DNA of 27,491 bases, taken from positions 1 through 27,491 of IMG/VR virus record IMGVR_UViG_3300032401_000063. One strand, 5' to 3'. The first letter of the stretch is position 1; each line of letters starts with the position of its first letter. The position numbers were made by a program, and so were the translations under genes. A model generated the notes under the pieces. It did no database searches. It saw nothing but the letters and a program-made list of their open reading frames with translations, and was not told the DNA's origin. This DNA comes from a virus. Positions 2,036 through 27,282 of the stretch are shown piece by piece.

Positions 2036-2458
2036 ATGACTCCTACCTTCCTCTCTCTCAGACAAGACGCTGAACTCGCTGCTAACTCTTGGAACGAGTT
2101 TGACATTGCCACATTGGCGTGCACCGAAGCTTTTGGGATGCCTTTTCAACTAGCGAAAGACAGTCTGACTAACAACATCACAGTTGCCGACTCAAAGAAA
2201 TTTGATCTGTCTGTGTTCAGTGGTGCTGATTCAGCCTTTAAATTCCCAGATATAGAAACAAATATTGTCGTTCGTGTTACCCGCAAGCCCACGGCACACA
2301 CAAAACTAGAAAAGATTGACGAAAAGATTGAGTTGCTTGAGCAAAAGGTCAAAGTCGCAAAGATCGAGCGCAAGAAACTGATTGAGCAACTAGCTATCAC
2401 AGGCGGCATTGACTTGGTAACCGATAAAATTAACCTCGCTTTTACCCGCTTAAAGTAA
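2036..2458 (+). CDS. hypothetical protein with C-terminal coiled coil
   Basis: A 140-residue protein. The N-terminal 90 residues are mixed alpha/beta with no recognised motif. Residues about 92-120 form a charged heptad-like helix (KLEKIDEKIELLEQKVKV), a likely coiled coil. The stop codon overlaps the ATG of the next small gene by 1 nt (TAATG), indicating coupled translation. A minus-strand ORF opposite it is a shadow. The oligomerising tail suggests a structural or adaptor role, but no function can be named. Confidence 0.65.
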   Translation: MTPTFLSLRQDAELAANSWNEFDIATLACTEAFGMPFQLAKDSLTNNITVADSKKFDLSVFSGADSAFKFPDIETNIVVRVTRKPTAHTKLEKIDEKIELLEQKVKVAKIERKKLIEQLAITGGIDLVTDKINLAFTRLK

Positions 2459-2619: not shown

Positions 2620-2643
2620 TATGGCTCTGGATACAGCATCTCG

Positions 2644-2672
2644 GAGCCGTTTAAGGGGCGGCTCTTTTTTTT
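2644..2672 (+). terminator. rho-independent terminator
   Basis: GAGCCG and CGGCTC form a GC-rich stem around a 9-nt loop, followed directly by eight T. It closes the small-gene operon that ends at 2619 and separates it from the AAA+/VWA cluster. Confidence 0.9.
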
Positions 2673-2701: not shown

Positions 2702-3895
2702 ATGAATTATTTGCTCTCCTGTTCAATTTCTGCGAATGTTCGTCAAAGCATTCAGATTAAATTTGACGATCTTAAACTCCCAGCTTCAGTGATACACACG
2801 CTAGAGCAGAACAACACTGTTTCTCTGCGGCCTACATTGTCCACGGCATTAAAGACAGAGTTAGATGTGTTGCGTGTTATGCAACGCGAACTATACGATG
2901 ACTACTGCATACACTTCGGTGACAATCACTTCGTCACAGCTAACTACTTTAATGATGCTAATAAGCTGATCAAACAAATACGAGGTGAGGTCAAAGAAGC
3001 AAACGAACGACTCTCAGGACTCTGGGAATCGGAATATGGTAAATGGAGTAACACAGTTGAAGGTTTCTTGCTTCCTTTGTTTACCGATGAGATGGAGTAT
3101 AAACTTGCTAGCGATGCTTACATGCGTGTATTCCCTACTCGTGAAGAATATCGTAATCCTGTACGAGTTCATGTTGTTGGCCCGTTACCTATATCCTTAG
3201 AGATTGCATCCGAGCCAACAACAGATGACGTAGGTTCGTTACTTGCCTATGAAAATTCAATAAATACAAAAGAAGTGATCGAAGCTGCTCATGCAAACGC
3301 AGCAGACAAAGCTCTTTTATTAAGTGCAGAATTACTGGATGATTTAGACGTAAGAACTGTTACTAAAGTTGGGCGTCAACAAACAGGAGGTAATAGAAAG
3401 CGAGGTTCGTGGCAGCTTACAGCAGAAAGATTGAAATTAATCAGTGATTCTGTCGCAGGCTTTGACGGATTAGCACACCTAGCAGATAAGTTGCTAGCGG
3501 CAGGGAACGCGATACAATCTCCTATGAGACAAATACGCGAAGAAGGTTGTACTAACTTCCAATTAGTTCAACAAGAGATTCGTGCTGAATTGGAATCAAT
3601 TGTAAATACGCGAGACACATCAAAAGGTCTTGAATCATTGCAGAAATCGTTAGCTTTGTCTAATACTTACACAACATTATGTGAACGAATTAAGACAGCA
3701 GAGAATATTAATTCCCTTAATCTTCTAGCTTTAGACTCAAACCTTGAGTTAGAGATCTACGCACAACGCTCTAAGCAACTTAATAAATTAATCAAACAAC
3801 GCCGGGAGCTCATTAGTGTAGCGGGAGATAATTTAGACAATTTAATTTCTGATACAAAAGCAGCCTCTCTTGCACAACAAGAGCCTGACTTCTAA
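2702..3895 (+). CDS. helical protein of MoxR-VWA cluster, DUF3150-like
   Basis: A 397-residue, mostly alpha-helical protein. Residues 50-115 contain a charged helix rich in Lys/Glu/Arg, and residues 280-390 contain several amphipathic helices. A basic TGGNRKRG patch lies near residue 230. No catalytic motif is seen. It heads a tight cluster with a MoxR-type AAA+ ATPase and a VWA protein. Phage and mobile-element clusters of this kind often carry a third protein annotated DUF3150, and size and context fit, but the family is inferred rather than read from a signature. It probably acts as the adaptor or target-binding partner of the AAA+/VWA pair. The stop overlaps the next ATG (TAATG). Confidence 0.7.
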   Translation: MNYLLSCSISANVRQSIQIKFDDLKLPASVIHTLEQNNTVSLRPTLSTALKTELDVLRVMQRELYDDYCIHFGDNHFVTANYFNDANKLIKQIRGEVKEANERLSGLWESEYGKWSNTVEGFLLPLFTDEMEYKLASDAYMRVFPTREEYRNPVRVHVVGPLPISLEIASEPTTDDVGSLLAYENSINTKEVIEAAHANAADKALLLSAELLDDLDVRTVTKVGRQQTGGNRKRGSWQLTAERLKLISDSVAGFDGLAHLADKLLAAGNAIQSPMRQIREEGCTNFQLVQQEIRAELESIVNTRDTSKGLESLQKSLALSNTYTTLCERIKTAENINSLNLLALDSNLELEIYAQRSKQLNKLIKQRRELISVAGDNLDNLISDTKAASLAQQEPDF

Positions 3896-4116
3896 TGAAA
3901 CGAATTGTCTATGCGTTTAAATCTAAGGAAGGTTACTTATCTGACATTGAAAAGTACACAGACGATCCGGAGAAAGCAGTTACTTTTATGTACCTTGAGA
4001 CTGCCATAACACGATTAGCTTCAGTCAAAGACAAATTAAAACATAACTGCTGTGTCATAGAACTAAAATTAGATTTCCCGAGAAAGACTGCAACACGTTT
4101 ATACGTTGAACTATAA
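3895..4116 (+). CDS. hypothetical small protein within MoxR-VWA operon
   Basis: A 73-residue protein translationally coupled to the upstream helical gene by a 1-nt TAATG overlap and followed 25 nt later by the AAA+ gene. It has an alpha/beta look: an opening strand (RIVYAFKS), a helix around residues 25-48, and a closing strand ending LYVEL. Its position inside the operon suggests an accessory role for the AAA+/VWA machine. No family is recognised. Confidence 0.65.
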   Translation: MKRIVYAFKSKEGYLSDIEKYTDDPEKAVTFMYLETAITRLASVKDKLKHNCCVIELKLDFPRKTATRLYVEL

Positions 4117-4141
4117 ATTTATTTGACAACAAATCAAACTC

Positions 4142-5329
4142 ATGAACGACTCCCTGTTTACGTCTCTTCAAACATTTAGAGCGAATCTTAATGCGGCCAC
4201 GCTGGAACGTCAACATGTAATTGACGGTCTTTTAGCCACTCTTTTGAGTAAACAAAATGCTTTCCTTCTTGGCGAACCAGGCACAGGCAAATCAGATCTT
4301 GTCCGTAACATATGTGGAGGTATTTCTGGCGCTAATTACTTCGGTTATTTATTGACGCCAACTACAGATCCCTCCGAAATATTTGGTCCTGTTGCGGTTA
4401 CAAAACTGCTGAAGGACGAGTATACTCGCGACGTTGTAGGCTACCTCCCTAATGCTCACATTGCTTTTACTGACGAACTGTTCAGGGGATCCTCTGCTAT
4501 CCTTAATTCACTTTTAACTTTACTGAACGAACGGACATACAACAATGGCAAAGAAGTTATTCAAACTCCCATTCAATCTATTGTCGCAGCGACCAATTCC
4601 TGGCCTGATGAAGAGTCCCTCCAAGCATTTGCAGACAGATTTCTTTTCAGACCCACAGTGGAGTTTCTTAAAAAATCCACTTCGAAACGGATCCTTGACG
4701 GCTGGGCTCTTGGGTTGGAAGAGAGACCAACTGTAACTCAGCACTTAACCTTAGATCAGCTTACACAACTGCAAGACGCAGCTAAAGCAATAAAAGTATC
4801 AGAGGATTTTATAGACAAGTATGGTGAAGTGTGGGATATGTTAGCGGGACGAGGAATTGTAATTAGTGATCGCAGAAGAGTTCAGATTCTCAAATTCTTA
4901 AAAGCTTGGGCAATTGTTTTAGGTGATGACGAACTTGTACCAGAACACATGCACGACTCCCTCGTGCACATCGTATACCAGAATATAGAGGACAGAGAGA
5001 CAATAGTAGAAGTTCTAGAGCAAATTATACCCACGGCGGATAAGATGTTTGCCGACGCTAAGAGAGGTGCTGCAGGAATAATGACAGAGTACAACCTTAA
5101 TTCAAGCAAGCTTCACTCACGCGGGATCTCAGATTTAAATGACTTCGTTATTCAACTCAGGAAATATTATAAAGACATGAACACTTTAAAAGAAAAAGTA
5201 AATGGGATCCTTGATGGTACTAAGTACCGTATGAACTTAAGATCACGACAAAGCGGAGTAAAGCTGCAGAAACAACTAGAAAGCTGGTGTGAAACTCTAA
5301 CTGTTGCCATAAGCGACATAAGCAAGTAA
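4142..5329 (+). CDS. MoxR/CobS-family AAA+ ATPase
   Basis: A 395-residue AAA+ ATPase. Walker A is GEPGTGKS at residues 44-51, Walker B is IAFTDELF at 107-114 (Asp111, Glu112), then LNERTYNNG (about 128-136), sensor 1 AATN (149-152) and a DRF motif near 165 that would carry an arginine finger. This order is the MoxR clade, which includes RavA and the CobS subunit. These act as hexameric chaperones paired with a VWA protein. The C-terminal 150 residues are helical. The downstream VWA protein at 5520-7070 is the expected partner. T4-like cyanophages carry a cobS-like gene, so the class is known in cyanophages; corrin synthesis itself is unlikely since no such pathway is nearby. Confidence 0.9.
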   Translation: MNDSLFTSLQTFRANLNAATLERQHVIDGLLATLLSKQNAFLLGEPGTGKSDLVRNICGGISGANYFGYLLTPTTDPSEIFGPVAVTKLLKDEYTRDVVGYLPNAHIAFTDELFRGSSAILNSLLTLLNERTYNNGKEVIQTPIQSIVAATNSWPDEESLQAFADRFLFRPTVEFLKKSTSKRILDGWALGLEERPTVTQHLTLDQLTQLQDAAKAIKVSEDFIDKYGEVWDMLAGRGIVISDRRRVQILKFLKAWAIVLGDDELVPEHMHDSLVHIVYQNIEDRETIVEVLEQIIPTADKMFADAKRGAAGIMTEYNLNSSKLHSRGISDLNDFVIQLRKYYKDMNTLKEKVNGILDGTKYRMNLRSRQSGVKLQKQLESWCETLTVAISDISK

Positions 5330-5361
5330 CCTGAACCCACCGTCCACCCCCAACAATCCAA

Positions 5362-5523
5362 ATGTCTAACGTTAAAGCAGAAGATCTAGTTCTCGTTCGA
5401 AAACGACTGGCTGACTTTATTGAGATTGCGGAGGAGATAAAGCCTGTCTCTGCTTACGACAAACTTGTGACTTTACTCATCGATCTGGATCGAGTAATTA
5501 CAAAAGCTAAAAAACAATTATGA
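5362..5523 (+). CDS. 53-aa small helical protein between AAA+ and VWA genes
   Basis: An ATG at 5362 opens a 53-residue ORF whose TGA overlaps the ATG of the VWA gene by four bases (ATGA), a translational-coupling signature. The product is one or two amphipathic helices (RKRLADFIEIAEEI and a Leu/Ile-rich second half). Its fixed place between ATPase and VWA genes suggests a small subunit or regulator of the complex. No family is recognised. Confidence 0.7.
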   Translation: MSNVKAEDLVLVRKRLADFIEIAEEIKPVSAYDKLVTLLIDLDRVITKAKKQL

Positions 5524-7070
5524 AACTTAATAGACAGACAGACTTTGTAAGGCTCACGCATAACGAGCCACTGACACTTGCTTGCTCTGCGTTAGCTGAC
5601 TTTTTGTGGAGCGACTTCATCATTGACGCAAAACCCTCTCTAACTTATTTAATTGATCATTACAATATCAAAAGTTTATCTCGCTTTGGTAAAGAACTTT
5701 TTGAACGGCTATATAACGCAGACGAAGTTAAGTGGTTAGTTACAGAAGATGCTTACGAAACTTACTTTCGTGCCCAACAAAATGGAGAAGACGTAAGATT
5801 TCCAGAGGGATACAAACCGGAGAATTCCATATGGTACGCAATCATGTCTGACTTAAGTGCTGCCGCCGCATGGTCACAGATGTTAGGGCACTGTGTGAGT
5901 AATCAATTTAACGCTGGAAACAACTCTATAAACATAATGAATCAATTGGCTGACTTGTTAGAGCAGTTAATAGAGGAGGATAAAATTGACGTTCAACTTG
6001 TTTTTAATTCCGGCGAGAAGCTAACTAAATTAAGAGAAGCTTTTCAAGAAGCTCGTGCTAATGGGGATACTGCAGAAATGAATAAATTACAGGCACAAGG
6101 ACGGGCACTTAATCAAGCACTCAACGAAGCTGTAGAACACCTAAAGAATCAATTGGGTTCGCAAGCAAGTCAAATGATTGATAAGGCGAACAAAGAATCA
6201 GACGAGATGAACGATTCCCTTTCAACTCTGTATGGGGATGAACAGGGAACAGGATTTCATACAGCAGATTTACAAACGAAAAAGGATTTAGCTCTTAAAT
6301 TAAGTAAGAATCCAAAGTTAAAAGCTTTAGCGAAAAAGTTAGGTGCTCTTCGTAAAGTCTGGCAAGAACGCAAAAGAGCAAAGATATTGAAGTCAAAATA
6401 TGAATCTATTAACGGTGCAGTTTTTTCTGACGATATTACGCGAGCGTTTCCAATAGAACTTGCACTGGCTGCTAGCGACAAAGGTAAAGCTTTATTCGCT
6501 TTGAAATTCTCACAGAAAACTTTGTTAACAAAAGACTATGATACTTCGCTAAAAAACCTAGGTAAAGGACCAATAGTAATGTATGTAGATGTTTCTGGTT
6601 CTATGGGAGGAGAATCAGAACTCTGGTCTAAAGCCATAGCCTTTGTAATTTCAGAAGAAGCATTGAAGGAAAAGAGAGAAGTACAAATATACTTATTCGA
6701 CACACGAATAGAACGAGAAGTAGTTCTTAACTCTAATAGAAAAACAAACAAAGACCTTTTAGATTTTGTTGGTACGTGGAGCTTAGGTGGAGGAACCAGT
6801 TTTAATTGTGTAGTAACCCACGCGGTACAAAAAATTAAAATAGAAAATCGTTCAGACTTTCTTCTTATTACGGATGGTCACTCAGAGGTTTTAGACTCTA
6901 ATATCAGAACGCTCAACGCAGTTAAACAACGTACAGGCACCCTCTGGAGTACAGTCTGTATCGGGACTCACGTCCCATCAATTGTGCATAAATTTTCAGA
7001 TGAAGCTTATTCTGTCGACGTCTCTGCACCTGTAGAAGCTGTCGACGTAATTCAAAAATGTATTAGGTGA
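5520..7070 (+). CDS. VWA-domain protein, ViaA/CobT-like MoxR partner
   Basis: A 516-residue protein. The N-terminal 330 residues are helical, with a Gln/Lys/Ala-rich middle (about 170-250) and a strongly basic stretch (about 265-305). The C-terminal third is a von Willebrand factor A domain with an intact MIDAS: D357-x-S359-G-S361, Thr426 in a GGGTS loop and D452-G453. This build, a helical N-terminal part with a C-terminal VWA, is that of ViaA and CobT-like partners of MoxR ATPases. It would bind a divalent metal and target, and be remodelled by the AAA+ ring. It is coupled to the 53-aa gene before it and to the gene after it (4-nt overlap). Confidence 0.9.
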   Translation: MKLNRQTDFVRLTHNEPLTLACSALADFLWSDFIIDAKPSLTYLIDHYNIKSLSRFGKELFERLYNADEVKWLVTEDAYETYFRAQQNGEDVRFPEGYKPENSIWYAIMSDLSAAAAWSQMLGHCVSNQFNAGNNSINIMNQLADLLEQLIEEDKIDVQLVFNSGEKLTKLREAFQEARANGDTAEMNKLQAQGRALNQALNEAVEHLKNQLGSQASQMIDKANKESDEMNDSLSTLYGDEQGTGFHTADLQTKKDLALKLSKNPKLKALAKKLGALRKVWQERKRAKILKSKYESINGAVFSDDITRAFPIELALAASDKGKALFALKFSQKTLLTKDYDTSLKNLGKGPIVMYVDVSGSMGGESELWSKAIAFVISEEALKEKREVQIYLFDTRIEREVVLNSNRKTNKDLLDFVGTWSLGGGTSFNCVVTHAVQKIKIENRSDFLLITDGHSEVLDSNIRTLNAVKQRTGTLWSTVCIGTHVPSIVHKFSDEAYSVDVSAPVEAVDVIQKCIR

Positions 7071-7315
7071 CCCCAATGCCACGTCCATCAAACGATCAAA
7101 TCCTAGAGCTGTGGCGCGACTTGAATGCGTCCGCTCGCATAGATGAACCAGCCCCTCCTACAGATCTTGTGATAGTCAGCTTTGCTGACGCATTACTAGA
7201 TAAGTGGCAGTACGCAGAAAAGGATACTAATTTAGACAACCTTTTTGACAATTCAAATTGGATGTGGGCTGACGAAGAAGAAGAACATGGACCAGATATA
7301 ACAGTATTTAATTAA
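7067..7315 (+). CDS. acidic hypothetical protein at end of VWA operon
   Basis: An 82-residue protein. The GTG at 7067 overlaps the VWA stop by four bases (GTGA) and is preferred because of this coupling; an in-frame ATG at 7076 is the alternative. The product is acidic, with a DEEEEHGPD cluster near the C-terminus and several Trp (positions about 16, 46, 67 and 69). It may be an adaptor or regulator of the MoxR-VWA complex by position only. No family is recognised. Confidence 0.6.
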   Translation: MTPMPRPSNDQILELWRDLNASARIDEPAPPTDLVIVSFADALLDKWQYAEKDTNLDNLFDNSNWMWADEEEEHGPDITVFN

Positions 7316-8637: not shown

Positions 8638-8676
8638 TTGACATGCTTGGTATGTCCATTACATTGGGCGTGTCAA
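8638..8676 (+). promoter_or_regulatory. sigma70-type promoter inside an inverted repeat
   Basis: A consensus -35 TTGACA (8638-8643) is followed after 16 bases by TACATT (8660-8665, four of six to the -10 consensus). The same TTGACATGC is mirrored by GCGTGTCAA at 8668-8676 (eight of nine), so a dyad brackets the promoter, as expected for an operator. Transcription would begin near 8672, upstream of the ATG at 8688, which fixes the start of the next gene. Confidence 0.55.
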
Positions 8677-8687
8677 CAGACCTTACT

Positions 8688-9476
8688 ATGGACATCAAAT
8701 TTAAATACCAGGGTTGCACTCTGGAAAATCTCGAAGCCATCGCTTTAATGAAGGCAGCCAAGGCTCCTCAACCATTTGAAGTGGATCTAGGTAAACTGAT
8801 TGACATAAAAGTGATTGACAGCCAAAAGCTGTTCACACTTAGTGTTGAGCAGCAAAACCCTGCACTAGCTAACCTAGCTTTTAAGCTTGCTACCACGGAG
8901 AAAAAAGACTTCAAAGTTGTAGTTAAAGCACCAAAGGCAGCCAAGGTATCGAAGAAACAGGAAACTTTAACGAATGCACAAGCGGTTGACATTGTAGATC
9001 ACCTTAATCGAAAGTCTTGTTACCGCAACGCAGGAGCTACTCTGCTGCTGCATTTTTGTACAACAAGTGAATCTCGTGCAATACGCGACATTGCAGTAGA
9101 GTTTGCGAATAAATGTCTTTCTGAATACAAGATTGATCCCAGATCAGTTGTGTTTCGTGGATTTACTAAAACTAAAGCCGGTCTTCTTGAACCGGTGGAA
9201 ACACATTCTGCCGTTGTTCGCCGTGATTCCTTCCACGTCTGCCCTTTATACATCGCTTTACGTGCGGGTCTTACTTACTGCGATACTAACGGGTTGCTGT
9301 CTATTCGTCAGCAGTATTCCAATGGTTCCCATAGCCAAAACGCAAGTGCTAAAGCGGATTTGATGCGTCGTATGTTCTACACCTTCAAACTTAGTAGCAA
9401 AGGAAACGAAGTGAAAGAGACTTGGGGTGATATGGAAGCATACTTAGTTAATTTCTTTAACTCCCGTCACGCTTAA
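8688..9476 (+). CDS. unknown 263-aa protein at head of replication region
   Basis: The ATG at 8688 (MDIKFKYQG) is preferred over 8643 because the longer form begins inside a likely promoter. The protein has a beta-rich N-terminal 75 residues, a Lys/Ala-rich linker (about residues 80-100, KVVVKAPKAAKVSKKQ) and a C-terminal 160-residue domain with several Cys, His and Arg (FHVCPLY). No family is recognised. Being first in the replication region, with its own promoter, it may be an early regulator or replication accessory protein; this is inference only. Confidence 0.7.
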   Translation: MDIKFKYQGCTLENLEAIALMKAAKAPQPFEVDLGKLIDIKVIDSQKLFTLSVEQQNPALANLAFKLATTEKKDFKVVVKAPKAAKVSKKQETLTNAQAVDIVDHLNRKSCYRNAGATLLLHFCTTSESRAIRDIAVEFANKCLSEYKIDPRSVVFRGFTKTKAGLLEPVETHSAVVRRDSFHVCPLYIALRAGLTYCDTNGLLSIRQQYSNGSHSQNASAKADLMRRMFYTFKLSSKGNEVKETWGDMEAYLVNFFNSRHA

Positions 9477-9768: not shown

Positions 9769-9804
9769 GCGTCCTCGCGCTTTGCGCTGCGGGGGCGCTT
9801 TTTT
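9769..9804 (+). terminator. rho-independent terminator
   Basis: A GC-rich stem (GCGTCC/GGGGCGC and GCGC/GCGC arms with G-T wobbles) precedes six T. It closes the 8688-9754 operon and lies upstream of the polymerase start at 9824, which excludes the longer in-frame start at 9782. Confidence 0.8.
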
Positions 9805-9823
9805 ATTTACTACTAAACTTCTA

Positions 9824-11719
9824 ATGCACATTAATTACATAACGTCTCGCCCAGATTACACTCAAGCAATTAAAATTCTTTCTGACTACAAAAAGCTTTG
9901 CCTTGACTTTGAAACAACAGGACTCCAAGCTAGGTTGGCTAAACCGCGCTTACTCCAACTTTGTGACAGCTGCCCGACTACTACGGATCGCACAGTATAT
10001 GTTTTTGACCTATTTAAAGTTCAAGCTGACACGGAATTAAAGGAGCTGATTGAATCCCGTGAAATGCTTATAGGTCAGAATTTAAACTTTGATCTACAGT
10101 TTCTTTACTACCTAGGTATAGATTTTAAGAATAAAATATTCGATACTTATATAGCTGAGCGGATACTTCGAGCTGGTTTTAAGGAGAAGCGGGTAAGCCC
10201 ACAAGCGCAAAAAGTTTATTTCGCAGACATCTCTTGTGGACTAAAGGCAATTGCTGAACGTCGGTTAGGTATTGAACTAGACAAAGAACAACGCAGAACA
10301 GACTGGTCTCAAGACAACTTGACACTAGAACAAATAGAGTACGCAGCCAAAGACGTAGACATATTGCCGAGTATCGCAGCGGATCAATTAGCCGAACTGC
10401 AAGAAGAGAATTTGACTCCTATTTTTAGCGTGGAGTCGAAGTGTGTCCGCCCGGTAGCTCTTATGTGCTACAACGGATTTGGCATCGACATTACTAAATT
10501 AGTTTCCCTGCGCAAAAAAGTAGAAGACGAATTAGCCGCGAAGACAGAACAGTTTATTTCGGAGCTGGACTCTAGACTACCAGAGCAATTAAAACTCCCT
10601 AAAACAGTTGAAGGTCTTGTTGCTATTGGCAAAAAACCAAAAAAAGAATTTAACCCTGGCTCAACAGCTCAAGTTGTCGCGGCCTTTAATGCTTGCAATA
10701 TACAGTTGCCTACAGACGCCACGTCGGGCAAGGCGACGCTTAATCAAATAGCTTTAGCCGAGTTTGATAGTGACGACTCGACACTCATTCTTTATCGCGA
10801 ACGAACAAAAATTGAGACAAGACTAGAACATGTAAATAAATTACTCACTAATGTGCATCCGATAACACATCGAATTCATTCGGGGTATAACCAAGTAGGA
10901 GCAAACTCAGGTAGGTTCACCAGCAGTGGACCTCCTAAAGCAAGTAAAAAAGAAGGTAAATCGGTTTATGCTGTAAATATCCAGCAGATCCCACGATCGA
11001 AAGATTTCAGGGAATGCTTTGTCGCTGCTGCAGGATATAAGCTAGTCATTTGTGATTGGGCTCAGATTGAACTGAGGTTAGGTGCAGAACTAATAAATAT
11101 TCCGCAGATGAAAGAAGCCTTTGTCAAAAACTTAGACCTACACGTGTTAACAGCGAGTCTTATTTACAAGATCGACATCTCTGAGGTTACCAAAGCTCAA
11201 CGACAAGAAGGTAAGACACTGAACTTTGCTCTTCAGTACGGTATGGGCTACCGCAAATATAAAACTTATGCTGCTCAGAGCGGAAAGATGATTAGTTTAT
11301 CCGAAGCTAAAATCGCTCACGCTGCTTTTCACATTGCATATCCACGCTTACGTGCGTGGCATCAAGAACGAGCAGCTCTTGTTCAAGACGGCTGGGCATA
11401 CGTAAGAACTGCTTGTGGTAGAAGGAGATTACTTAGTTACGATGACGCAACGATGATGTGCAGTGCAAACACCTTAATTCAAGGTAGTGGAGCTGACATT
11501 TTAAAATTGGCTATTGCCGAGTTAAATCAACACTTGAACGATGATGTCCGTTTAATAACAGCAGTCCACGACGAGCTTGTGCTAGAAGTAAAAGAGGATT
11601 TAGCTGAGAAGTATAAAGAAATTCTTGAGTCGATCATGATTGACGCAGCTAACTTTGTTCTAGACTCGGTTCCGTCCTCTGCTGACGCTTCAGTAGGAGA
11701 CTCATGGGCGTCGAAATAA
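9824..11719 (+). CDS. polA: family A DNA polymerase with 3'-5' exonuclease
   Basis: A 631-residue replicative polymerase. The N-terminal proofreading domain has Exo I D28-x-E30 (LDFETTG), Exo II NFD90 and Exo III Y173-x3-D177. The C-terminal polymerase domain has motif A D411 (DWAQIELR), motif B R460-x3-K464-x2-NF468 ending YG473, and motif C H582-D583-E584. All catalytic Asp are present. There is no N-terminal 5'-nuclease domain, as in T7-type and many phage polymerases. Motif B has Ala469 where Gly is usual. The ATG at 9824 was chosen because an upstream in-frame start lies in the terminator stem. It should copy the phage genome with the SSB-like protein and the primase-helicase. Confidence 0.96.
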   Translation: MHINYITSRPDYTQAIKILSDYKKLCLDFETTGLQARLAKPRLLQLCDSCPTTTDRTVYVFDLFKVQADTELKELIESREMLIGQNLNFDLQFLYYLGIDFKNKIFDTYIAERILRAGFKEKRVSPQAQKVYFADISCGLKAIAERRLGIELDKEQRRTDWSQDNLTLEQIEYAAKDVDILPSIAADQLAELQEENLTPIFSVESKCVRPVALMCYNGFGIDITKLVSLRKKVEDELAAKTEQFISELDSRLPEQLKLPKTVEGLVAIGKKPKKEFNPGSTAQVVAAFNACNIQLPTDATSGKATLNQIALAEFDSDDSTLILYRERTKIETRLEHVNKLLTNVHPITHRIHSGYNQVGANSGRFTSSGPPKASKKEGKSVYAVNIQQIPRSKDFRECFVAAAGYKLVICDWAQIELRLGAELINIPQMKEAFVKNLDLHVLTASLIYKIDISEVTKAQRQEGKTLNFALQYGMGYRKYKTYAAQSGKMISLSEAKIAHAAFHIAYPRLRAWHQERAALVQDGWAYVRTACGRRRLLSYDDATMMCSANTLIQGSGADILKLAIAELNQHLNDDVRLITAVHDELVLEVKEDLAEKYKEILESIMIDAANFVLDSVPSSADASVGDSWASK

Positions 11720-12267: not shown

Positions 12268-13428
12268 ATGCCTTACTTTCTCGCCGGTAAACCTCTCGCA
12301 AAAGATAAATCCTTTTCTGCAGGAGACACGCTATTTCCGTCTAATTTTCTAGATCTATCTACTGCAGAAGAGCGCTCCTCACTAGGTATTACGGAGGAAA
12401 GTGATTCACCAAGTACAGCTCCCTCTGAGACTAGATTAGCCGGGGGCAACTTTGAAACATCAGTGCCTACGGTAACAGGATCCCCCACGGAAGGATCGAA
12501 TCAACCTATTGACAACGAATTTCCAGACTTAGATGACGCAACAAAGTCATATATTGACGCCTTAGGTCAAGATTTTTTTAAAGCAAATATTGCGCCTCAA
12601 TTAGCTGGTAGTCGTTTTGGCACTGACGGAGAGGGAGTAACGTATAGAAAACCCTCAAATCTTAAAGGAGGTGTTTTAAGTTTTAACAGACAAGATAAAA
12701 TAGAACCTCCTGCTCCAATAGCGCAGGCTCCCGCACCGCAAGCTCCGACAACGCAAACTCCCGCACCGCAAGCTCCTAGCGTACCTACTACATTTACCCC
12801 ACCCCCAGGTGCTTCCCCACAAATAAATTATCCAGCGGACACAAGACCTAATATCTCCGCTCCATCCGACGATAATAACAATGATGATTCCAGCCCTCCT
12901 CCTCCTTTAGTTACTACACCTCAACCTGAGGCTGCTCCTGCTCCAACTCCTGCTCCTGCTCCTACTCCTGATCCTACTCCTACTCCTACTCCAACTCCAC
13001 CAAAAGCGCAGCCCCAAATAATGGCGATGGAGAGATTTTACAAGCCTGGAGAGGGGCATTTACAAACATCAAACCCAAGTGTCGAAAATCTCGAAGGTTT
13101 TACGAGGGAGGGTACCTCTTTTAACCTTTATAAAGATGAGAATTTATCCGAAGCTTCCGACGTATATAGAATATTTAACCCTTCGACAGGTAATCATTTA
13201 CTGACGACAAATAAAGCGGAAGTAGACGCGGCAGTTGCGGGTGGTTATCGAGCTGAAGGAGTAACAGGAGAAGCCTATACTTCTCAGCGAGAAGGAACCG
13301 AAGCAGTTGAACGTTATTACAACGCAGTAACGGGTCAACACTTGTTAACTAGAGACCCTAACGAGATGGCTGCTTTAGCGGGACAAGGGTATAACTATGA
13401 AGGCACAGCTTTCTATGCACCTAAATAA
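12268..13428 (+). CDS. Pro-rich modular fibre-like protein with DUF5648-type repeats
   Basis: A 386-residue modular protein. Residues 1-45 share a module with the 205-aa protein at 26665-27282 (FxAGDTxFPxNxLxL, then EERxxxGITE). Residues about 130-250 are low complexity, rich in Pro, Ala, Thr and Gln (PAPQAP and PTPTP repeats). From residue 252 to the end are three copies of a DUF5648-like unit, of the form RxYNxxTGxHLLT, a Glu-rich helix, GYxxEGxAFY. Such units occur in secreted and phage surface proteins. It is probably a virion adhesin or fibre accessory, although it lies between replication genes. Confidence 0.75.
   Translation: MPYFLAGKPLAKDKSFSAGDTLFPSNFLDLSTAEERSSLGITEESDSPSTAPSETRLAGGNFETSVPTVTGSPTEGSNQPIDNEFPDLDDATKSYIDALGQDFFKANIAPQLAGSRFGTDGEGVTYRKPSNLKGGVLSFNRQDKIEPPAPIAQAPAPQAPTTQTPAPQAPSVPTTFTPPPGASPQINYPADTRPNISAPSDDNNNDDSSPPPPLVTTPQPEAAPAPTPAPAPTPDPTPTPTPTPPKAQPQIMAMERFYKPGEGHLQTSNPSVENLEGFTREGTSFNLYKDENLSEASDVYRIFNPSTGNHLLTTNKAEVDAAVAGGYRAEGVTGEAYTSQREGTEAVERYYNAVTGQHLLTRDPNEMAALAGQGYNYEGTAFYAPK
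12728..12776 (+). repeat. tandem 30-bp repeat in Pro-rich linker
   Basis: A 19-base unit (CTCCCGCACCGCAAGCTCC) occurs at 12728-12746 and again at 12758-12776, a 30-base period giving PAPQAP units. Further Pro codon repeats continue near 12930-13000. Slippage here would alter linker length. Confidence 0.8.
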
Positions 13429-25815: not shown

Positions 25816-26670
25816 ATGACAGCCACTCTACAAGACGCATGGGTCCAATTCAAAAACGAACGTGCAGTAACCCTGTGCCCTACGAGTTTAGTTTCCGACT
25901 ACAGGCAGGTAGAAAAATGGATAAATAATTGTCCTCTGACAGACTTAAATGAAGGTCGTCAGATTATGGCTTGGGTCTTAGGACAAAAACCAATTAAATC
26001 TAGCCGCCGTGTCGCAATGTACGTAAAAAGTCTGTACAAATGGGCATCTAGTGAAGACATTGCACTTCTGTCAAAAAATCCAATTACAACTTTTAAAATG
26101 CCAAAACCTCCGCAGGAGGACATAGACATTATTGTTATACCCCAGAGCGAAACTTTAATAGTTTTAAACGCTTTAAACTCAAAGACCACGCGAAATGGGG
26201 CTCGTTGGTCTCACTACGCGGAGTTTATGTTGCAGACCGCAATGAGAACCGGAGAAGTAAGGGCTTTAAAGTGGGAAGATATAAAAGAAAATAAAGTATT
26301 AGTTCACGGTAATTACACACTTACTCATGGATATAAAAATTCAACTAAGACAAACCGCAAACGTTGGGTACCTCTAAACATCAAGACGCAAGAAATTTTA
26401 GATAAAACAAAGAAAGTTGACGAGTATATATTTCCGTGGAATAGATACGCATTTCAAAGTTACTTTTACGACAGAATGTCCGAACTACATAAGGAAGGGA
26501 TAATCGAAAACAGGTATCGCCCTTACGATCTTCGCCACACGGCGATTAGTCGTTGGATAGAAGCACAAATACCTGTAGCCCAAGTAGCGAACTGGGCTGG
26601 AAACAGCTCTGAAGTTATTTGGCAACACTATGTAAATGTGACCAAAGATTACGAAATGCCCGTTTTATAA
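25816..26670 (+). CDS. int: tyrosine recombinase integrase
   Basis: A 284-residue phage integrase with an N-terminal SAM-like domain (about 1-95) and a C-terminal catalytic domain. The catalytic Arg144 is in TAMRTGE, R240 in YDLRH, and Tyr272 in WQHYVN is the nucleophile. The box-II His of H-x-x-R is Tyr237 here, and the usual LGH is AGN (Asn263). Related integrases tolerate these changes, so it may still be active. It would recombine attP with a host attB, giving lysogeny. A palindrome plus TATAAT precedes it. Confidence 0.92.
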   Translation: MTATLQDAWVQFKNERAVTLCPTSLVSDYRQVEKWINNCPLTDLNEGRQIMAWVLGQKPIKSSRRVAMYVKSLYKWASSEDIALLSKNPITTFKMPKPPQEDIDIIVIPQSETLIVLNALNSKTTRNGARWSHYAEFMLQTAMRTGEVRALKWEDIKENKVLVHGNYTLTHGYKNSTKTNRKRWVPLNIKTQEILDKTKKVDEYIFPWNRYAFQSYFYDRMSELHKEGIIENRYRPYDLRHTAISRWIEAQIPVAQVANWAGNSSEVIWQHYVNVTKDYEMPVL

Positions 26671-27282
26671 AACTATGGTGTCTTCTCCATTACTACCAAA
26701 TAAACCTGCGCTGTTAATCGTTCCCGCGCTAGTGACACCGGTAAATACACTGTCTGTGCTGCCGCCAGTAAATACGAAGTCAGAGGTAGCACCTACGCTA
26801 CCTTCGACTACAACAACTGGTTGCTCTTGAGAGGGCCAAACAGGGTAACCAGACCCAGTTATGTAACTAGCTAGTTCATCAGTGGAGATTGTTGTAGCTA
26901 TGTTAAGAACTTTATAGTTACAGGCTCCTCGTATATCTTGACGCCATATTTGAACACCGCTTGGTATTGGTGTACCGTTATCAACCATACGGACCACGGA
27001 CCAATCAGATGGACTTAGAAGAGTATTAGCTGTAGTTCGAGTTTGATCTACCCAACCAGATACTAAAACGCCATGATCCTTAGGTATTAAAGTACCACTA
27101 GCGGTATAACCCCAATAAAAGCGTTGATCGTAATAAGGACTTGGGGGATCAGGAACCTCAGTAATACCAATTGCAGCTCGTTCCTCTGGAGAAGCTAAAC
27201 GAAGCCAATTGGCGGGAAACATAGTGTCTCCTGCTTCAAAAGAAACGTCTAGAGGTAACCGATTCCCGTTTAAAACAAACAC
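26665..27282 (-). CDS. tail-fibre assembly/chaperone-like protein
   Basis: A 205-residue minus-strand protein from GTG at 27282. Residues 1-45 carry a module also found in the 386-aa protein at 12268 (SFEAGDTMFPANWLRL, SPEERAAIGITE). Then comes YYDQRFYWG and an SPSDWSVV...YPVWP stretch, like the tail-fibre assembly chaperone gp31/TAP domain (DW...YR...WP). The C-terminal 50 residues are Gly/Ser/Thr-rich with SVFTG repeats. Its end overlaps the integrase by 6 nt, tail to tail. Confidence 0.7.
   Translation of the reverse strand: MFVLNGNRLPLDVSFEAGDTMFPANWLRLASPEERAAIGITEVPDPPSPYYDQRFYWGYTASGTLIPKDHGVLVSGWVDQTRTTANTLLSPSDWSVVRMVDNGTPIPSGVQIWRQDIRGACNYKVLNIATTISTDELASYITGSGYPVWPSQEQPVVVVEGSVGATSDFVFTGGSTDSVFTGVTSAGTINSAGLFGSNGEDTIVL

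Follow-up and report, generated by a model that had tools for sequence, protein, structure and literature searches.

A MoxR–VWA pair with a dedicated third component in the replication operon of uncultured cyanobacterial viruses: a candidate three-part AAA+ remodeller

What would a phage use a MoxR-type AAA+ ATPase and a von Willebrand factor A (VWA) protein for? The question is raised by a block of six open reading frames (ORFs), all on the + strand, at positions 2702-7315 of the virus record IMGVR_UViG_3300032401_000063, of which the entire 27,491-nt stretch analysed is referred to here as the window. In this block the genes for the ATPase and the VWA protein are preceded by H397, encoding a helical protein, and accompanied by three small ORFs. 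The reading favoured here is that the locus encodes a three-component AAA+ remodeller, composed of a ring, a lever and an H397 adaptor, that would act early and is probably linked to replication; taken as a whole, we place this reading at about even chances. Its core, a three-part machine of MoxR, VWA and H397, is quite probable as judged from sequence. Direct support comes from the homology of motor and lever to known proteins, their intact motifs, the obligate linkage of the genes in phages and the recurrence of the trio on plasmids. The block consists of the following ORFs:

2702..3895, + strand: H397, helical protein of 397 amino acids, ending in an invariant -DF
3895..4116, + strand: s73, 73 amino acids, with a TAATG overlap with H397
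4142..5329, + strand: MoxR AAA+ ATPase, RavA-like, 395 amino acids, matching bpMoxR, AAA_5 and the RavA model
5362..5523, + strand: s53, 53 amino acids, lineage-restricted, with an ATGA overlap with the VWA gene
5520..7070, + strand: VWA protein, ViaA-like, 516 amino acids, with an intact metal ion-dependent adhesion site (MIDAS)
7067..7315, + strand: a82, acidic-tailed protein of 82 amino acids, lineage-restricted, with a GTGA overlap with the VWA gene

An earlier note on this DNA had described the six-ORF cluster, and all ORFs were recovered with the lengths given there. It had also described the genes as coupled; the TAATG (H397/s73), ATGA (s53/VWA) and GTGA (VWA/a82) junctions can be read from the sequence, but the MoxR gene itself overlaps neither neighbour, being set apart by 25 nt on its upstream side and 32 nt on its downstream side.

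The ATPase matches the Pfam families bpMoxR (PF20030, E 1.2e-56), AAA_5 (2.5e-21) and AAA_lid_8, and its best NCBIfam family is RavA (NF010054, 2.1e-37; 129 bits, where the equivalog cut-off is 681). In a direct comparison it aligns with Escherichia coli RavA at 146 bits over residues 8-270, and RavA structures were matched as well. Walker A (GEPGTGKS), Walker B (FTDE), sensor 1 and the arginine residues are all intact, in agreement with what the earlier note had read for the two Walker motifs, and across the relatives the Walker and MIDAS residues show little or no variation. E. coli RavA carries in addition a LARA domain (PF20265) and a C-terminal domain (PF12592), both of which are missing from the window MoxR. 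Of the earlier label "MoxR/CobS-like", the MoxR half is upheld and the CobS half is replaced by RavA: the chelatase identity CobS/CobT was rejected on family scores, and in PHROG the "porphyrin biosynthesis" family 249 reaches just 1.7e-4, compared to 2.8e-68 for phrog_19600. By sequence comparison, the window ATPase and VWA protein are thus homologous to RavA and ViaA of E. coli, and not to CobS and CobT.

The VWA protein matches Pfam VWA domains (2e-6) and the NCBIfam ViaA model NF008230 (1e-16, under the equivalog cut-off), and aligns with E. coli ViaA at 51.6 bits over residues 226-501, a span that includes the segment ahead of the MIDAS. The MIDAS, described as intact in the earlier note, is confirmed by residues D357/S359/S361, T426 and D452. 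A sequence search against the PDB gave nothing beyond a weak match to the PARP4 VWA domain, and the Foldseek matches of the predicted model include NorD as present in the NorQD complex (9qhe, TMt 0.55). The NorD finger enters the pore of the NorQ ring in this complex (PMC9976466, PMC13036017). By its position beside the MIDAS, the pre-MIDAS segment of the window protein may correspond to the NorD finger; in the monomer model this segment includes stretches with a predicted local distance difference test (pLDDT) score <50.

The linkage of these genes was counted around 83 distinct full-length MoxRs of the window lineage, with loci carrying enough flank as denominators; the rates hold for the hidden Markov models (HMMs) used, and diverged small ORFs may escape them. 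VWA follows MoxR in 81/81 loci and H397 precedes MoxR in 74/75. The earlier note had named solitary ATPase and VWA genes elsewhere as part of what would refute its proposal, and the pairing in 81/81 goes against that refutation. The gene order in dozens of contigs is a conserved gene g140, H397, s73 where present, MoxR, s53 where present, VWA and, further downstream, g277 and a family A DNA polymerase (PolA). The earlier suggestion that the small proteins are subunits does not hold generally for s53 (8/81) and a82 (6/81), and s73 is intermediate, occurring in 45/75 relatives and in each case overlapping H397 by 1 nt (alignment A6). The ratio of nonsynonymous to synonymous substitution (dN/dS) is 0.23-0.33 for s73 (0.33 against the nearest relative), 0.07-0.28 for s53 (0.07) and 0.16-0.26 for a82 (0.16), with values of 0.23-0.28 against the next-nearest relative. 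Since this range of 0.07-0.33 indicates purifying selection, the three are real genes and not chance ORFs. Several relatives carry an ORF of ~220-238 amino acids between s73 (or H397) and MoxR that is absent from the window (L003:5922-6632, L127:5237-5935, L132:5276-5932, L144:4816-5487 and similar).

H397 gave no meaningful match in Pfam, PHROG, NCBIfam or PADLOC, and no convincing match in the PDB by fold or by sequence; its fold is predicted by AlphaFold with a pLDDT of 83. The protein is best read as a dedicated subunit that earlier recognition had missed, for which an adaptor role is proposed. All 85 phage H397 sequences end in -DF, and the intact homologues on plasmids and in Nostoc, discussed below, have -GF at this end, preceded at a short distance by an Asp. 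This end follows a low-confidence stretch in the model that is probably flexible, and looks like a docking tail. Foldseek also matches H397 to one DUF3150-annotated phage protein (probability 1.00, E 1.7e-4, TMt 0.58, full-query TM 0.45). DUF3150 had been proposed for an HMM check in the earlier note, but the profile (PF11348) does not match H397 at E<=1, and a PF11348 search of phage records, with a weak positive control, gave no match; DUF3150 membership by sequence was rejected.

The trio is not confined to phages. A MoxR search of plasmids identified Acaryochloris marina pREC1 and Chroococcidiopsis pA, in which an unnamed protein of 442 or 467 amino acids is followed by MoxR and then VWA. 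Aligned with hhalign, H397 and these upstream proteins match over ~355 columns (E 4e-14 and 1.6e-14), and reciprocal HMM searches between the phage and plasmid sides reach E-values down to 6e-25 and 2e-28. The intact order H397-MoxR-VWA is found on conjugative plasmids, two of Chroococcidiopsis (pA and pCHRO.01) and one of Acaryochloris (pREC1), and in a metagenome-assembled genome of Nostoc sp. S4. The three genes are homologous to those of the phages and ordered alike, with a longer H397 N-terminus and, in Chroococcidiopsis, toxin-antitoxin genes between MoxR and VWA. The earlier note had called for a synteny search in other phages and elements; the trio proves to be kept in dozens of phages and to recur on cyanobacterial plasmids, where the literature searched contains no description of it. 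In a MoxR tree, the phage proteins and the four H397-bearing cyanobacterial MoxRs form one clade (support 95/94), with the MoxR of cyanophage CL131, which lacks H397, next outside and E. coli RavA outside as well. In the other cellular MoxR-VWA pairs compared, H397 was undetectable by HMM. Overall, an H397-like protein occurs in seven plasmid records, five of them typed as conjugative, and some copies are broken. Broken trio copies, with H397, MoxR or VWA split or truncated, are located at L457:6986-11990, L373:6582-8276 and L456:7001-8122, and their occurrence suggests that the trio is dispensable to some plasmids.

A pattern scan of genomes with the phage-only H397 alignment found nothing. 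A profile of phage and plasmid H397 (A11), run on 386 sampled cyanobacterial genomes, recovers the trio of Nostoc together with a group of chromosomal proteins of ~360 amino acids, with E-values to ~6e-14. In the neighbourhoods examined, the distant H397 relative comes before a DUF1257 gene, a small ORF, the gene of an AAA-family ATPase and that of a WGR protein; the ATPase beside the DUF1257 and WGR genes is one that we take to be Ycf46-like. Such clusters are located at L554:5464-9986, L555:6530-11386 and L556:6604-11174, with up to four copies of the H397 relative per genome. Because members precede both MoxR-VWA and DUF1257/AAA/WGR genes, the H397 family accompanies two kinds of AAA+ motors. 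The further proposal that H397 founds a previously unrecognised family of AAA+ partners, belonging to cyanobacteria and their mobile elements and serving at least two unrelated AAA+ classes, and that the trio remodels replication complexes of mobile DNA, is speculative and rather doubtful.

The window itself is, by its protein matches, a fragment of an uncultured lineage of freshwater cyanobacterial viruses that is sister to Synechococcus phage S-EIV1 and has relatives of up to 80-87 kb. The host is probably a picocyanobacterium, because the portal of the 87.5-kb relative G010 has S-EIV1 (42% identity) as its sole match among phage records. Around the block, the window contains the following features:

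2036..2458, + strand: g140, 140-amino-acid protein, conserved gene ahead of H397
2643..2665, + strand: intrinsic-terminator-like hairpin with a 10-pair stem followed by a T run, from a consensus scan, just 5' of H397
8643..9476, + strand: g277, lying from the block towards PolA, with its synteny conserved in almost all relatives
9782..11719, + strand: PolA, matching DNA_pol_A at 2.6e-63

The gene block sits within the replication operon, which runs on into PolA and an SSB-like gene (g214, a weak match to single-stranded DNA-binding protein). In G010 it shares its strand with PolA and a D5 helicase-primase, and most structural genes are on the opposite one. Where the flank is long enough, g140 is found upstream of the block (62/63 relatives); in other lineages it abuts or overlaps H397, and in the window the two are separated by the terminator-like hairpin. 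This hairpin is a candidate element, as hairpin matches in the scan overall were no commoner than chance; the promoter scan returned fewer sites than were found in shuffles. A Pfam search with g277 gave no match. Elsewhere in the window, positions 206-550 encode a small CxxCxxCC protein with a putative zinc- or iron-chelating domain (PF03692, 1.1e-10). The proteins at 12268-13428 (with a DUF5648 domain, in the middle of the replication region) and 26665-27282 (at the structural end) are otherwise different and share a similar N-terminal segment, GDT-x-FP-x-N-x-L...EER...GITE, which may be a common virion-attachment domain.

The distribution of the block follows that of the polymerase. S-EIV1 and G010 have terminase (5e-171), portal (2e-175) and further structural proteins in common, but g140, H397, MoxR, VWA and g277 are absent from S-EIV1 and its PolA is different. 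Across S-EIV1 and S-EIV1-type contigs, including contigs of 81 and 84 kb, a search of 18 records revealed no MoxR, no H397 and no full match to the window-type PolA; several of the other contigs among these records are fragments, which on their own decide nothing. Wherever a tested contig was informative, it had either both the window-type PolA and the block or neither. MoxR and VWA accompany PolA in almost every contig whose upstream sequence is long enough; a few, in which long insertions precede PolA, stop short of the block, and one 23-kb contig (G031, L297) has PolA without MoxR and may be a fragment. Position in the operon and co-inheritance with PolA indicate an early or replication stage. 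The earlier notion of a phage remodelling machine remains fair, and its chaperone-type pair with an extra subunit is supported, with H397 as the dedicated subunit; the operon position and the phylogenetic profile add direction.

What we infer for the complex itself can be put as follows. The motor would be a hexamer of the RavA-like MoxR ATPase, and the lever a ViaA-like VWA protein whose conserved pre-MIDAS segment enters the ring pore like the NorD finger in NorQD, while its MIDAS face would grip an acidic residue. H397 would serve as a dedicated adaptor or stator linking the motor to its target, with contact probably made through the flexible tail in which the invariant C-terminal Phe is preceded by Asp. 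The small proteins s73, s53 and a82 would be lineage-specific accessories. The machine would be expressed early in infection, and its most likely target would be a replication-stage complex, a target class that we propose tentatively and at less than even probability. Several observations weigh against this picture. Co-inheritance with PolA may merely reflect exchange of the whole early module. In contig L009 (45786 bases) MoxR, VWA and PolA are present and H397 and g140 were not found; this is the sole exception for these two genes, and its upstream region is unlike the others, with many small unrelated ORFs. The predicted VWA model has modest confidence (predicted template modelling score 0.44), and DDLDxR, an acidic H397 motif specific to the phages, is not conserved in the plasmid homologues. 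Moreover, the plasmid trios lie amid toxin-antitoxin and NACHT genes, a setting which a role in conflict would fit as well.

This last point leads to an alternative in which the block is a module for conflict: phages and plasmids would use it, as a MoxR-vWA ternary system, to act against competitors or to counter host defence. A MoxR, a VWA protein and a third gene are the architecture described for such systems by Kaur et al. 2020 (PMC7159879), and the plasmid copies have NACHT, HigA/RelE, AbiE and recombinase genes as neighbours. However, the third component in the window is H397, compared to VMAP, iSTAND, FtsH or beta-propeller proteins in the ternary conflict systems. Library scans of the six window proteins detected no VMAP, iSTAND, beta-propeller, FtsH or effector domain, and no effector, STAND or beta-propeller gene was recognised in the phage block. 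The bpMoxR match, considered as a sign of such systems, was rejected as not diagnostic, because plain E. coli RavA scores equally well with that model (1.6e-56). A PADLOC search gave no convincing match, and in the phage lineage the block is almost always present and strongly conserved, unlike the patchy, variable pattern of a conflict system. Overall, we consider a conflict role unlikely.

A second alternative is that the pair is a chaperone of virion or tail assembly that remodels structural proteins, as is thought for MoxR p618 and VWA p892 of Acidianus two-tailed virus (ATV; PMC4124505) and has been proposed for group 2.2 jumbo phages (PMC7824862). MoxR next to or near VWA is a feature of these viruses, of Hardycor1 and 0305phi8-36, and likewise of Aphanizomenon phage CL131 and Moorella phage MTATph1, and several of these viral pairs are located in a replication or accessory region, like the window block. 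No H397 was found near the pairs of CL131 and MTATph1, whose upstream genes encode LPD29 and DUF6744 proteins. A DUF6744 protein also precedes MoxR-VWA, with small ORFs between, in Bacillota elements (L371:3884-8893, L040:6373-10564), and seems to be an independent third gene in a cassette of this type; as homologues of H397 these proteins were rejected, and they are at most analogous to it because hhalign gave no match. Against an assembly role, the genes belong to the replication operon and most structural genes run on the other strand, the trio also occurs on plasmids, which form no virions, and S-EIV1-type phages share homologous terminase and portal without having the block or the window-type PolA, which disfavours this role. 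MoxR-VWA pairs of unrelated caudoviruses are also found near replication or non-structural genes, and this placement, together with position and co-inheritance, makes a purely structural role less likely. An assembly chaperone is therefore an explanation of low probability.

Similarly improbable is a remodeller directed at a host complex, such as a respiratory complex, NDH-1 or Rubisco, in the manner of RavA-ViaA and CbbQO. The homology to RavA-ViaA speaks for it, comprising the AAA+ core, an adjacent VWA partner, the MIDAS and the pre-MIDAS segment, and the known clients of the cellular pairs are respiratory and Rubisco complexes (PMC10585395, PMC4660213). NorQ-NorD and CbbQ-CbbO likewise combine a MoxR ring with a VWA lever, but their clients are metalloenzymes or Rubisco, they have no H397, and their sequence relation to the window proteins is via domains only. 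The phage system also differs from RavA-ViaA in that its MoxR is without the LARA and C-terminal domains and H397 is added, and its linkage is with phage replication genes; why plasmids should carry the same machine is then not obvious. Least of all do we expect that the machine inserts a metal or cofactor into a phage enzyme, since, even though NorQD, CoxDE and the chelatases are of the MoxR-VWA type and the pair of phage 0305phi8-36 has been called a metalloprotein chaperonin (PMC2147016), no metal-binding motif was noticed in H397 and no corrin, porphyrin or metalloenzyme assembly gene was recognised among the window proteins scanned, in line with the earlier remark that corrin genes are absent nearby.

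For a phage MoxR-VWA motor, a role linked to replication rather than to virion assembly is indicated, which had not previously been assigned in the literature searched. MoxR-VWA pairs are widespread chaperone motors of which client recognition is poorly understood, and a third subunit that is inherited together with the pair provides a handle on target choice in a compact, natural three-gene system.

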